Origin: Gemmobacter nectariphilus
GTDB taxonomy: Bacteria > Pseudomonadota > Alphaproteobacteria > Rhodobacterales > Rhodobacteraceae
NCBI GenBank assembly: GCA_020721445.1
Contig: DYMU01000009.1
Coordinates: 1-64,000 of the forward strand
Reading direction: 5' to 3'
DNA length: 64,000 bases
In this document: positions 5,570-18,580 of the stretch, piece by piece
Position numbering within the stretch: position 1 is the first letter of the stretch
Layout of the letters: the number at the start of each line of letters is the position of its first letter
The notes under the pieces: model-generated
The model's input: the letters and a program-made list of their open reading frames with translations, nothing else
The model's database searches: none
Told to the model about the DNA's origin: nothing
Made by a program: the position numbers and the translations under genes

Positions 5570-5615
5570 TGGTGCTGCAAGAGAGGATTGAACTCTCGAC
5601 CTCTCCCTTACCAAG
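5570..5615 (-). pseudogene. 3' half of the disrupted host tRNA-Thr(GGT); left attachment site
   Basis: On the minus strand this reads from the anticodon loop through the variable region and T arm to the acceptor strand TTGCAGC, then ACCA. It lacks the acceptor 5' strand, the D arm and the 5' anticodon strand. Its acceptor strand pairs with GCTGCAG at 18574-18580, and its anticodon strand GGGAG pairs with CTCCC of that same fragment. The two pieces therefore were one 75-base tRNA. The 11-bp crossover core CTTGGTAAGGG is at 5605-5615. Confidence 0.88.
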
Positions 5616-5747
5616 AAGCGGGCCGCCAGTTTCCCGGGGTATCCGCAGGGCTCCGCGCGTTGCCTAAACCCGTTTACTTACAGGCACTTGGGCGCTATAG
5701 TCGGCTCCGGTGGTATAGGCCCGTAAAGCCGAATAGCCCACCATTCC

Positions 5748-5766
5748 GTTACCCCGCCGTTACCCC
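5748..5766 (-). repeat. Left arm-type integrase site (two GTTACCCC repeats)
   Basis: GTTACCCCGCCGTTACCCC: two 8-bp copies 11 bp apart, one helical turn. The identical 19 bp occurs inverted at 18301-18319 near the right end. It sits just upstream of the integrase start. Pairs of short repeats flanking the core are typical arm sites for lambda-type integrases. Confidence 0.72.
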
Positions 5767-5776
5767 GGAGTTTGCG

Positions 5777-6952
5777 ATGAAGAAGAAGCTGACTGAGATG
5801 GCCGTGGACAAGATGAACCCCGTCGCGGGCCAGCGGCTTGAGGTTTTCGACACCCTGACCCCGGGCCTTGCGCTGCGCATCACCGAGGGCGGGAAGAAAA
5901 GCTGGTCGGTGATGTATCGTGTCGCGGGCCGGGGCGACGGCGGGAACCGGGGCGCGCTGCGCCGGATGACCCTCGGGGCCTATCCCCTGATCGACCTGAA
6001 GGCGGCGCGCGACAAGGCCCGGGCCGCCATCGACCTTGCCGACCGGGGCGACGATCCTGCTGACCAGCGCAAGGATGAGCTGCGCCAGAAGGGTGAGCGG
6101 GTCTTTGAGGTGATCTGCGCCCGCTTCATCGAACTGCACGCAAAGGCCCATACGGTGAAGTGGAAGGACACCGAACGGCTGCTGAACACCTATGTCGTGC
6201 CGGAATGGAAGTCGAAGCCCATCGACACGCTGGACCGGGCGACGGCGCACGAGTTGCTTGACGAGATTGCGATGGAGCACGGCACCGGCGCGGCGCGTGA
6301 GGTTCGGAAGCACATCACCAAATTCTTCAACTGGGCCGTCGATAGGGGCCTGCTGACCGCCAGCCCCGTCGCCGGGATGCGCCGCCCAGAATTGGGCTAT
6401 GTCGCCCGCGAACGTGTGCTGACGATGGACGAGCTTAAGGCCATTTGGGCAGCCGCCGACAAGATGGGCTACCCCTTCGGCCCGATGGTCCGGCTCCTGA
6501 TCCTGACGGCGCAGCGGCGGGCCGAGATTGCAGGGCTGCGCCGCGACTGGCTGTTGCCCGACCAGACCGCCTATGAGGTGCCAGCCGCGTTCTATAAGAC
6601 CGACCGCCCGCAGGTGGTGCCTTTGTCGGCACCGGCGCTTGCCATCGTGGAAGGTCTGCCGAAGTGGAACAGCGGGGAATACCTGCTCTCGACCACGGCG
6701 GGCAAGGTGCCTGTCTCGGGTTTCTCGAAGGCCAAGGCACGGTTGGACAAGTTCTCGAAGGTGGAGGGCTGGACCCTGCACGACCTGCGCCGGTCTGCCG
6801 CCACCCATATGGCGCGTCTTGGCATCCCGCAGGAACACATCGAACGGGTGCTGGGCCACGCGATTGAAGGGGTGGCGGGGACGTATAACCGCTATTCCTA
6901 CCTAGACGAAAAGCGGGCTGCACTTGAGACGTGGGGTGCGCTGTGGGCGTGA
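5777..6952 (+). CDS. int: Tyrosine-type site-specific integrase
   Basis: Protein of 391 residues. Residues 1-100 resemble the DUF4102-like arm-binding domain (LTPGLALRITEGGKKSW, then MTLGAYPLIDLKAARDKA). The core-binding domain spans about 105-200 and the catalytic domain 210-385. Catalytic residues visible are Arg247 or 248 in TAQRRAEIAGL, His335 and Arg338 in LHDLRR, His361 in LGHAIEG and the likely nucleophile Tyr370 in AGTYNRYSY. The start is the ATG at 5777; an open frame continues upstream through the tRNA fragment but is not coding. It lies 160 bp from the left attachment core, as expected for the enzyme that inserted the element. Confidence 0.95.
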   Translation: MKKKLTEMAVDKMNPVAGQRLEVFDTLTPGLALRITEGGKKSWSVMYRVAGRGDGGNRGALRRMTLGAYPLIDLKAARDKARAAIDLADRGDDPADQRKDELRQKGERVFEVICARFIELHAKAHTVKWKDTERLLNTYVVPEWKSKPIDTLDRATAHELLDEIAMEHGTGAAREVRKHITKFFNWAVDRGLLTASPVAGMRRPELGYVARERVLTMDELKAIWAAADKMGYPFGPMVRLLILTAQRRAEIAGLRRDWLLPDQTAYEVPAAFYKTDRPQVVPLSAPALAIVEGLPKWNSGEYLLSTTAGKVPVSGFSKAKARLDKFSKVEGWTLHDLRRSAATHMARLGIPQEHIERVLGHAIEGVAGTYNRYSYLDEKRAALETWGALWA

Positions 6953-7605
6953 AGGATTACCCGTCGCTCCGCCGCGCGGACGTGATCCGCGCCCGCCACG
7001 CCTACCGCAGCATTGTTGACCTGCCGGAGATTGAGCGCATCACGGTTGAGCTTTTCGGGGAGGGGGTGGTTTATGCGCCCCACACCCTTGCCCCGAGGAC
7101 GGGGCCGAAGGGCGCGGCGCAGCGGATTGCCGAGATTTGGGCCAAGATGACGCCAGCCGAACGCGACCACTTCCATCAGGTCTTGGTGGCACAGGTGGGG
7201 GAGATCACCGACACACTGCCGGTAGACGTGGGGGCGGCGGCGCGCCAGATCGTTGAGGCTCAGTCGGCGGGCCGGGTGGGCGACACCCGCGACATTCCCG
7301 GGCTGCGTGAAGCCGTCTTTGAACTGGCGAGGTGCTGGGCCGAACGCGGTGGCCCGGTGGTTGTCGGAAACCCGCACCGCGACACCGACCGATGGAAGCC
7401 CTACCCCCTCCTGATGTTTGCCGTCGCGGGTGTCCGTTGGGCGATGCCGATGGAGTATCGGCGGGCCACCAGTGACCCCGGCGGGCGGCGGCAACTGCTG
7501 CACAAGGACGTGCACGGCCAGTTGCGGGCGCTCTGGGAGAGTGGCCAGCTAAAGGCCCTGCGGCAGACCGTAGCGGCAATGCAGCCGGTTTCCGGCTCCG
7601 ATTAG
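6931..7605 (+). CDS. Unknown protein downstream of the integrase
   Basis: Up to 224 residues, starting with GTG at 6931 or at the in-frame GTGs at 6943 or 6949; all overlap the integrase end, so it is translated with it. Soluble, no signal peptide or membrane segment. It has many charged and aromatic residues and a histidine-rich part near the end (QLLHKDVHGQL). I recognise no domain. Its position between integrase and the AlpA-like gene suggests a role in element regulation or excision, but this is inference. Confidence 0.7.
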   Translation: MGCAVGVKDYPSLRRADVIRARHAYRSIVDLPEIERITVELFGEGVVYAPHTLAPRTGPKGAAQRIAEIWAKMTPAERDHFHQVLVAQVGEITDTLPVDVGAAARQIVEAQSAGRVGDTRDIPGLREAVFELARCWAERGGPVVVGNPHRDTDRWKPYPLLMFAVAGVRWAMPMEYRRATSDPGGRRQLLHKDVHGQLRALWESGQLKALRQTVAAMQPVSGSD

Positions 7606-7674
7606 CGCGACCGACGCAGCCCGCAGACCCGCGTAGCCTCCCCCCAGATGACACCATATCCGGGAGACCACGCG

Positions 7675-7863
7675 ATGCAGACCAAAGACACGCTGTTGAC
7701 GATTGAGGAGGTCGGGTCGCGCATCCGCCTCTCCAAGCCCACCATCTACAAGTTGATCCGGGAGGGCAAGTTCCCCCAGCAACTCCACCTCTGCGCCAAC
7801 AAGGTCGCGTGGCTGGAGCGGGAAGTTGACGAGTGGCTGGCATCGCGGGTGGCGGCGCGATGA
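7675..7863 (+). CDS. AlpA-like/MerR-type small DNA-binding protein
   Basis: Protein of 62 residues with a winged helix-turn-helix: LTIEEVGSRIRLSKPTIYKLIREGKFP, then LERE and VDEWL. This is the AlpA/excisionase pattern, used to activate the integrase or direct excision in satellites and islands. The ATG at 7675 is preceded by GGGAGA; a start at 7648 is less likely. Its stop overlaps the start of the primase gene (ATGA). Confidence 0.88.
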   Translation: MQTKDTLLTIEEVGSRIRLSKPTIYKLIREGKFPQQLHLCANKVAWLEREVDEWLASRVAAR

Positions 7864-18266: not shown

Positions 18267-18300
18267 AAATATTGTGTCCGGGGCGCGACTATCTCGCCTT

Positions 18301-18319
18301 GGGGTAACGGCGGGGTAAC
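18301..18319 (+). repeat. Right arm-type integrase site (two GGGGTAAC repeats)
   Basis: Exact inverted copy of the 19 bp at 5748-5766. A further single GTTACCCC is at 18474-18481, close to the right core. The arrangement mirrors arm sites on both sides of a lambda-type attP. Confidence 0.72.
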
Positions 18320-18369
18320 TGAGCCTTGCCGCCCCGCGCCACCCAACCGCTTGATTTTCTGAGGATTTA

Positions 18370-18444
18370 TGGTGCTGTGAGAGAGGATTGAACTCTCGAC
18401 CTCACCCTTACCAAGGGTGTGCTCTACCACTGAGCTACCACAGC
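18370..18444 (-). tRNA. Complete tRNA-Thr(GGT) carried by the element
   Basis: 75 bases including the encoded CCA. Acceptor GCTGTGG/TCACAGC, D arm GCTC/GAGC, anticodon stem CACCC/GGGTG with loop TTGGTAA (anticodon GGT), T stem GAGAG/CTCTC. It lies inside the element, between the two halves of the broken host tRNA-Thr. Compared with the rejoined host tRNA it differs at six positions, all as three compensated base pairs, so it is a functional relative and not a copy made by recombination. It supplies the decoding function lost by insertion. Confidence 0.93.
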
Positions 18445-18459
18445 CGCCTTTTTCCCAGA

Positions 18460-18488
18460 TAGCTACCCCGGGCGTTACCCCGTGTCAA
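18460..18488 (-). promoter_or_regulatory. Promoter-like sequence of the element's tRNA-Thr
   Basis: On the minus strand TTGACA (18483-18488), 17 bases, then TAGCTA (18460-18465), ending 15 bases before the tRNA 5' end. The -35 box is perfect; the -10 is poor against TATAAT but alphaproteobacterial -10 boxes are loose. Transcription from the host tRNA promoter further right is an alternative. Confidence 0.55.
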
Positions 18489-18540
18489 GCGGGCTCTGGA
18501 AAAGCCCTTTAGTTTCTGGCCCCTAGCAGCTCAGAGCTTC

Positions 18541-18580
18541 CCCTTACCAAGGGAGTGCTCTACCACTGAGCTACTGCAGC
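18541..18580 (-). pseudogene. 5' half of the disrupted host tRNA-Thr(GGT); right attachment site
   Basis: On the minus strand: acceptor GCTGCAG, D arm, anticodon strand CTCCC and loop TTGGTAA, after which the sequence diverges (GGGGAAG) and no T arm follows. It joins perfectly to the 3' half at 5570-5604 to give a 75-base tRNA with every stem paired. The core CTTGGTAAGGG is at 18541-18551. Confidence 0.88.

Follow-up and report, generated by a model that had tools for sequence, protein, structure and literature searches.

The window analysed here is a stretch of 64,000 nucleotides from Gemmobacter nectariphilus (GenBank assembly GCA_020721445.1, contig DYMU01000009.1, positions 1 to 64,000), and it contains a 12.9-kb element lodged between two host genes that an earlier reading of the sequence, hereafter the original prediction, named bufA and murA. 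The element splits a host tRNA-Thr(GGT) gene in its anticodon loop. It is bounded by an 11-bp direct repeat, CCCTTACCAAG on the plus strand, whose copies at 5605–5615 and 18541–18551 form the core of the attachment (att) site. Read on the minus strand, the right copy closes the 5′ half of the tRNA gene (18541–18580, the right junction; 100% match to positions 1–40 of the rejoined gene) and the left copy opens the 3′ half (5570–5615, the left junction; 100% match to positions 30–75). The rejoined halves give 75 nt that ARAGORN reads as a complete tRNA-Thr(GGT), with acceptor, anticodon and T stems fully paired (7, 5 and 5 pairs, counting G·T as a pair; the D stem lies outside this count). ARAGORN calls no tRNA at either half, and the 5′ half runs on into unrelated spacer, so the host gene is rebuilt at neither junction and the canonical regeneration at one of them is absent. 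The cut in the anticodon loop, the positions of the halves, the paired stems and the lack of a restored gene are all as originally predicted.

Genomes of the same genus show what the site looks like when it is whole. A gene 100% identical to the rejoined sequence stands intact in 6 of 15 such genomes, and a full-length match of at least 92% occurs in 14 of the 15, the match in G002 being a carried tRNA at an occupied site; in the fifteenth, G007, the match is 82% complete. A search of relatives for the unbroken gene near murA had been proposed, and in four of these genomes (G004, G013, G014 and G015) an intact tRNA-Thr(GGT) does adjoin a gene matching the murA of the window. At the empty sites that were read, the intact gene is single and has no carried tRNA beside it. 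One of the four, G013, has an exact second copy of the last 39 bases of the intact tRNA-Thr(GGT) 1 bp after it, with no element between (locus L075, 2666–2780).

Inside the element, 96 bp from the 5′-half junction and on the same strand as the broken gene, lies a complete replacement tRNA-Thr(GGT) (18370–18444, minus strand; called by ARAGORN and scoring 69.3 bits with the Rfam tRNA model). It differs from the rejoined host tRNA at six positions, which make up three compensated base pairs. Both the intact tRNA and its compensated differences had been recognised correctly; the distance to the right junction, given before as 97 bp, measures 96 bp.

We examined the tRNA complement of the assembly at 39 places located with Rfam, all of which were read with ARAGORN. 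The recommended count of tRNA-Thr(GGT) genes turned up one complete copy among the 39, the three threonine genes being CGT, TGT and GGT, and no second full-length match of at least 80% identity was found in the 32 entries searched (three genomes counted twice). In three host open reading frames (ORFs) of the window, ACC and ACT account for 50 of the 64 threonine codons. The integrated element very probably has to supply tRNA-Thr(GGT). Two points weigh against this dependence. The assembly comprises 53 contigs and is 99.93% complete, and the genes for tRNA-Tyr, tRNA-Ile(GAT) and tRNA-Ala(TGC) are missing from its list of 39 tRNAs, which points to assembly gaps, perhaps at ribosomal RNA operons, so that a second Thr(GGT) gene may sit in such a gap; and tRNA-Thr(TGT) might read some ACC or ACT codons. 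The original prediction went further and held the element to be needed for viability. This is an overstatement: the integrated state very probably depends on the carried tRNA, yet the host gene would be re-formed by precise excision, and two other assemblies, G170 and G357, hold occupied and intact sites together. In each, the left junction is occupied and an intact tRNA shares its downstream flank (exactly over the compared stretch in G170, but for two mismatches in G357); neither assembly yielded a right junction or a carried tRNA. Such a double state is as expected of a mixed or mobile population, and strain mixture or binning could also give it.

The arrangement recurs in other genomes. 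Of 394 genomes of the family, 19 matched a pattern of two suitably spaced tRNA D arms, and seven of these (window included) are tRNA-Thr(GGT) cases, the others being tandem tRNA-Gly or tRNA-Asn genes. With a stricter pattern, 27 stretches were recovered from GTDB genome contigs, 26 of which consist of a broken 5′ half followed by a complete tRNA. These 26 overlap partly with the same-genus set and with the 394-genome set; their hosts are mostly Rhodobacteraceae, with Bosea, Phyllobacteriaceae, Rhizobiaceae and one metagenome-assembled genome labelled Sphingomonadales. Both patterns demanded a replacement tRNA on the same strand and on the 5′-half side, which put any other arrangement beyond their reach, a bias that has to be set against the layout statistics. 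Eight elements, that of the window among them, have their two ends on a single contig, separated by 11.9 to 29 kb; the 3′ half of one, G266, is shortened. Of the elements tested, all 12 yield a complete tRNA both from the rejoined host halves and from the carried gene, with fully paired acceptor, anticodon and T stems; the two tRNAs differ from each other at 0 to 12 positions. This set omits G266 (its 3′ half matched over 26 bases only), G445 (an atypical left junction) and loci for which no 3′ half was found. The halves of five of the 12 (G438, G456, G452, G273 and G304) lie on different contigs, so their pairing is presumed, and the 12 are not all independent, since the integrases of G435 and G387 are 99% identical.

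The element of the window encodes a tyrosine integrase (5777–6952, plus strand) with Arm-DNA-bind_3, Phage_int_M and Phage_integrase domains (Pfam PF00589, PF13356 and PF22022). Homologues 70–90% identical to it adjoin a tRNA-Thr 3′ half at eight other loci, and we refer to att sites with the integrase in this place as type A. In type B (three loci) the integrase lies on the tRNA side and is about 26% identical to that of the window, and the spacers of L117, L126 and L127 fit neither type well. Taken together with the CRP-810 phages described below, the design is found with three deeply diverged integrase groups. A search with the window integrase that made no use of the tRNA signature matched 6 of the 394 family genomes at E values below 1e-90. 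Five of the six matches, all at least 82% identical, adjoin a tRNA-Thr 3′ half, and the sixth, 54% identical, does not. Three type B loci additionally hold a complete tRNA-Thr(CGT), close to either the integrase or the replacement tRNA (L138, 8674–8749; L135, 8391–8465; L147, 3628–3703), which may guard or replace a second threonine tRNA.

The carried tRNA looks like a foreign, travelling tRNA when it is compared with the genes that it accompanies. One identical carried tRNA sits behind four different broken host halves, which makes it doubtful that the sequence has simply drifted, as the original prediction had it. For 20 of the 29 distinct spacers, the first 30 nt of the carried tRNA do not match those of the broken half, and in type A the carried tRNA is about as similar to the half of its own host (0.933) as to the halves of other hosts (0.926). 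Against this view, carried tRNAs of the other types are closer to their own host (0.956 vs 0.866), and in type A the identity of the spacer and that of the carried tRNA are uncorrelated (rho 0.02), so the tRNA is not simply inherited together with the spacer; the few bases preceding the tRNA change along with it, which is why we read the missing correlation as cassette exchange.

Carried tRNAs may themselves become targets. In G387 and in Rhodovulum steppense the broken 5′ half is preceded by the spacer of another element, with no original host half recognisable, and the broken gene was therefore probably the tRNA of an earlier element. We regard these as two likely cases of a later element breaking the tRNA of an earlier one.

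The layout also occurs in phages. Roseobacter phage CRP-810 is reported to integrate into a host tRNA-Thr through a 13-bp core, with PCR of both junctions (PMC11288001). In its record (OR671924), a complete tRNA-Thr(GGT) starts 24 nt after TTGGTAA in the same direction; the authors place the core ‘downstream’ of the phage tRNA (PMC11288001), which agrees with the plus strand of the record because the tRNA lies on the minus strand. CRP-810 thus resembles the window element in having a short core within tRNA-Thr and a complete tRNA-Thr(GGT) in the same direction, but it is a 57.7-kb phage with a very short spacer, and its integrase is 26% identical to that of the window over 210 residues. The available text of its description contains no discussion of the replacement of the broken tRNA (PMC11288001). 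Patterns combining core and tRNA-Thr found 15 viral contigs, several of them near-identical to one another. Fourteen encode a complete tRNA-Thr(GGT) and a CRP-810-like integrase (50–68% identical), whereas the fifteenth (L184) breaks off inside the tRNA and its integrase is a different one. TTGGTAA and the tRNA are 15–28 nt apart in 12 of the 15, 90 nt in two and 112 nt in one.

A survey of 39 loci with relatives of the CRP-810 integrase weighs in the other direction: only two have the core and a complete tRNA-Thr. Four have a canonical phage attachment site (attP) with the whole tRNA-Thr(GGT) 3′ half (L202, L205, L207 and L208), six have the 3′ half of another tRNA, two have the 3′ part of a tRNA-Thr on the other strand, and at the remaining 25 nothing was found within up to 330 bp of the integrase; several of the 39 loci are truncated. 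Restoring and replacing strategies therefore both occur inside one integrase family, as they do in mycobacteriophages (PMC10865867). A two-tRNA pattern matched no viral contigs, nor did these contigs yield a confirmed relative of the window integrase; among phage records that integrase had 267 matches, all below 60% identity and at most 32% identical among the 20 matches listed. Conversely, a broken-half signature with a short CRP-810-like gap matched none of the 394 family genomes.

The att spacer between core and replacement tRNA (18445–18540, minus strand) contains tandem GGGGTA repeats at 18464–18481, which are candidate integrase arm sites. Further candidates are a pair of GGGGTAACG repeats near the left end (5747–5766, minus strand) and a single copy on the inner side of the replacement tRNA (18301–18309, plus strand); the repeat has four copies in the window, every one at the two ends of the element, where 0.28 would be expected. 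Spacers of the window type fall into two length groups, 94–96 and 105–107 bp, about one helical turn of DNA apart. A terminator-like stem followed by a T run lies inside the spacer at 18491–18507 on the plus strand, directed from the element towards murA, and a scan of 18300–18760 reported no terminator on the sense strand. Plasmid and phage records gave no spacer match covering 80% of the query, the matches listed (20 each) being tRNA-like stretches, and a spacer pattern matched 0 viral contigs.

The spacer also has a potential helix, formed by 18496–18503 with 18451–18458, that covaries in 15 type A-like spacers: 97.5% of cells are paired, eight cells have both sides changed, and none of 500 shuffles scores as high on these counts. 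The imperfect pairs, read on the tRNA-sense strand, are G·T in 11 cells and A·C in one, a bias that suggests a transcript of that strand starting ahead of the spacer. As the spacer sequences are related, the helix is no more than suggestive. For further pair types the observed value was reached in 46 of 500 shuffles, and a second helix (34–38 with 46–50) drew weak support; both results count against this interpretation.

With good confidence, we explain the locus as the work of a satellite-like element whose integrase splits tRNA-Thr(GGT) and swaps in the element's own copy, likely under the host promoter. The tyrosine integrase would recombine attP with the anticodon stem-loop of the host gene, the crossover region probably being the 7-bp anticodon loop TTGGTAA. 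As the two sites have just 11 bp in common, insertion severs the host tRNA and neither end of the element makes it whole again. The tRNA of the element lies 96 bp inside the junction that retains the host promoter and the 5′ half, in the same direction, so integration would exchange the host tRNA for that of the element. In a read-through transcript the replacement would mature like any other tRNA, and a single step would then both destroy the old gene and bring the new one to expression; precise excision would restore the original. We also lean, less firmly, towards a broader history in which diverged integrases converged on an attP with a promoterless tRNA behind the core, capturing the promoter of the target, in which successive elements repeat the event, and in which tRNA-Thr(GGT) has been repeatedly replaced in many Alphaproteobacteria.

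The part played by the host promoter most needs weighing. A promoter-like sequence, CTTGCGC-N13-CGACTAAT (18623–18650, minus strand), lies 42 bp upstream of the broken 5′ half and points through it to the replacement tRNA; it stands at the same distance in the empty site of G015. Of 32 loci (29 distinct spacers), 24 have the CTTG...CTAAT motif ahead of the broken half and none has it in the spacer; within the last 200 bp it occurs in 72% against 1.2% of base shuffles. The nested cases keep it as well, 174 bp upstream in G387 and 151 bp upstream in Rhodovulum steppense. Most likely, then, the host promoter reads through the dead 5′ half and the spacer into the replacement tRNA. Several observations tell against this: the motif was chosen after inspection of the sequences; it is missing from 8 of the 32 loci, among them Ruegeria L116 and Halocynthiibacter L126; it occurs at only 19 of 31 mostly empty sites; a sigma-70 consensus scan of 18300–18760 does not report it; and spacers of the window type, at 94–107 bp, could accommodate a promoter of some unfamiliar type.

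The strongest competing account, to which we give a smaller but appreciable chance, accepts the element and the replacement and has the tRNA expressed from a promoter of its own in the att spacer, as in phage Fionnbharth, whose tRNA has a strong promoter upstream (PMC10865867). The original prediction had pointed to a promoter-like TTGACA-N17-TAGCTA there, and the window does contain a perfect TTGACA and a 17-nt gap. The same scan reports no sigma-70 promoter in the spacer, and homologous spacers read TTGACC, TTGCAT, TTGCTT, TTGATC, TTGCGC or CCGCTC in place of TTGACA and keep their internal GGGG repeats; on these two grounds we reject TTGACA-N17-TAGCTA as a promoter. The 15–28-nt gaps of CRP-810-type phages, moreover, leave no room for another promoter, and the sense-strand helix would require transcription that starts further upstream.

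It is improbable that the carried tRNA serves mainly to divert later elements to itself as a decoy, or to stand in when a defence system cuts tRNAs, with replacement incidental. Later elements do seem to have landed in the element tRNAs of G387 and Rhodovulum steppense, and protection against tRNA degradation has been discussed (PMC10865867), but such a role explains neither why the carried isotype is the broken isotype nor why a second match of at least 80% identity is absent from the 32 entries. We consider it very unlikely that the element integrated in the canonical, tRNA-restoring way and later decayed at the restored junction. The four canonical attP sites among relatives of the CRP-810 integrase speak for such an origin, type B spacers start with AGGTC or GGGTC, much like the tRNA, and the present state may derive from a canonical one. 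As a description of that present state, canonical restoration is rejected: a short shared core accompanies a complete tRNA in all 12 rejoined elements, and the 3′ half, judged by eye, is rebuilt in 0 of 29 distinct spacers. Least probable of all is that the host tRNA was duplicated in tandem, one copy then receiving an ordinary element and the intact copy being host DNA. In its favour, 1 of the 27 stretches is a true tandem duplicate of an intact tRNA-Thr(GGT) (L109, 3065–3271, Hyphomicrobiales bacterium UR115). We reject it for the window because the intact tRNA lies inside the att-core repeats, a single gene stands at the empty sites read, the carried tRNA is unlike the host gene and recurs in elements of different hosts, and phage CRP-810 carries it outside any host.

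The gene content of the element is that of a small, satellite-like element. Besides the integrase, it encodes on the plus strand an AlpA-family, excisionase-like regulator (7648–7863; PF05930, TIGR01764), a primase-polymerase/helicase-like replication protein (7833–10346; PF09250, phrog_29234, phrog_19930), a serine recombinase of the resolvase/invertase type (12190–12792; PF00239) and a protein resembling a terminase small subunit (TerS; 12753–13376; phrog_309, E value 9.7e-7). On the minus strand it carries as cargo a type II adenine methyltransferase of the M.Eco57I type (15723–17513; PF22837, PF07669; PADLOC MTase_II, E value 1.3e-168), overlapped by an ORF (17464–18234) that matched nothing in Pfam, PHROGs, PADLOC, NCBIfam or PDB sequences and is possibly, from its position, the restriction partner. 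We compared five complete type A elements (the window, G439, G435, G387 and G457). Common to all five are the integrase, the AlpA-like gene, the recombinase, the TerS-like gene and the ORFs at 13516–14421 and 14708–15091 of the window; a homologue of the primase-polymerase is found in three, and the remaining two carry another primase-like protein. The genes beside the carried tRNA vary, and in G439 this place is taken by a NaeI-type enzyme and a Vsr nuclease. Four of ten element proteins matched PHROGs (integrase, primase/helicase, invertase and TerS-like protein) and six did not, and no capsid, portal or tail family was found among the ten.

Satellites like the phage-inducible chromosomal islands (PICIs) have integrase, AlpA, primase or replication and small-terminase genes on an element of 10–15 kb. 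All of these genes are present in the window element, which we call satellite-like from its gene content. With PICIs and P4-like satellites it shares the integrase, AlpA, primase-helicase, TerS-like gene and restriction-modification cargo; to our knowledge, replacement of a tRNA is not a described feature of these satellites.

The principle at work is not new: Guerrero-Bustamante and Hatfull (2024; PMC10865867) described it for actinobacteriophages under the name tRNA-dependent lysogeny, and they also cite the Lactobacillus prophage Lj965 as a likely case. The shared features are a tyrosine integrase, an attB inside a tRNA gene, a core of about 10 bp, no rebuilt tRNA and a carried tRNA of the same isotype (PMC10865867). 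That the broken tRNA be otherwise non-redundant is also part of this lysogeny, and it is so in the assembly of the window, assembly gaps being possible. The systems described there are actinobacterial phages targeting Lys, Ile2 and Leu genes, whereas the window element is satellite-like and targets Thr(GGT). The Fionnbharth tRNA, which overlaps another gene, is driven by a strong promoter of its own, and the tRNA region of cluster L is drawn separately from that of integration (PMC10865867); the window tRNA lies directly behind the att core on the host-promoter side. Nearness of the tRNA to att may not be unique, since the Gaia tRNA lies downstream of the integrase (PMC10865867). The same authors speculate that a supplied tRNA could become a new attB (PMC10865867), and G387 and Rhodovulum steppense look like natural cases.

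Canonical tRNA-targeting islands share the tyrosine integrase, tRNA target and end repeats (Islander, PMC4383910), but they rebuild the tRNA at one junction (PMC8371274), which the window element does not. Closer to our case is tRNA-Leu(UAG) of Sinorhizobium meliloti, also an alphaproteobacterium, where an inactivated gene was replaced by a tRNA inside an integrated element (PMC11476347). The isotype there is another; tRNA-Thr(GGU) genes inside islands are listed for Sinorhizobium, but the attP of the tRNA-Thr(GGU) gene 010 holds 23–47 bp of the 3′ end and is canonical, and no fixed att-linked layout is described in the available text (PMC11476347). In the open-licence literature searched we found no description of satellite-like elements that perform a tRNA swap, or of host-promoter capture. 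Three aspects look new: the use of tRNA-dependent lysogeny by small satellite-like elements in Alphaproteobacteria; the position of the replacement tRNA, which follows the att core by 15–112 nt on the side of the host promoter, where integration probably brings it under the control of the promoter of the broken gene; and the two likely cases in which a later element broke the tRNA of an earlier one.

For annotation, a tRNA 5′ fragment adjoining a complete tRNA can flag the boundary of an element. The choice of tRNA genes as targets is usually explained by the ability of an element to rebuild the gene, and these elements do the reverse. With about 11 shared bases, they should therefore be less tied to the sequence of one host, at the cost of carrying a tRNA. 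The findings take tRNA-dependent lysogeny beyond the phages of actinobacteria, to phages and satellite-like elements of Alphaproteobacteria, and they suggest a one-step coupling of destruction and replacement, and with it a route for the horizontal exchange of an apparently single-copy tRNA gene.

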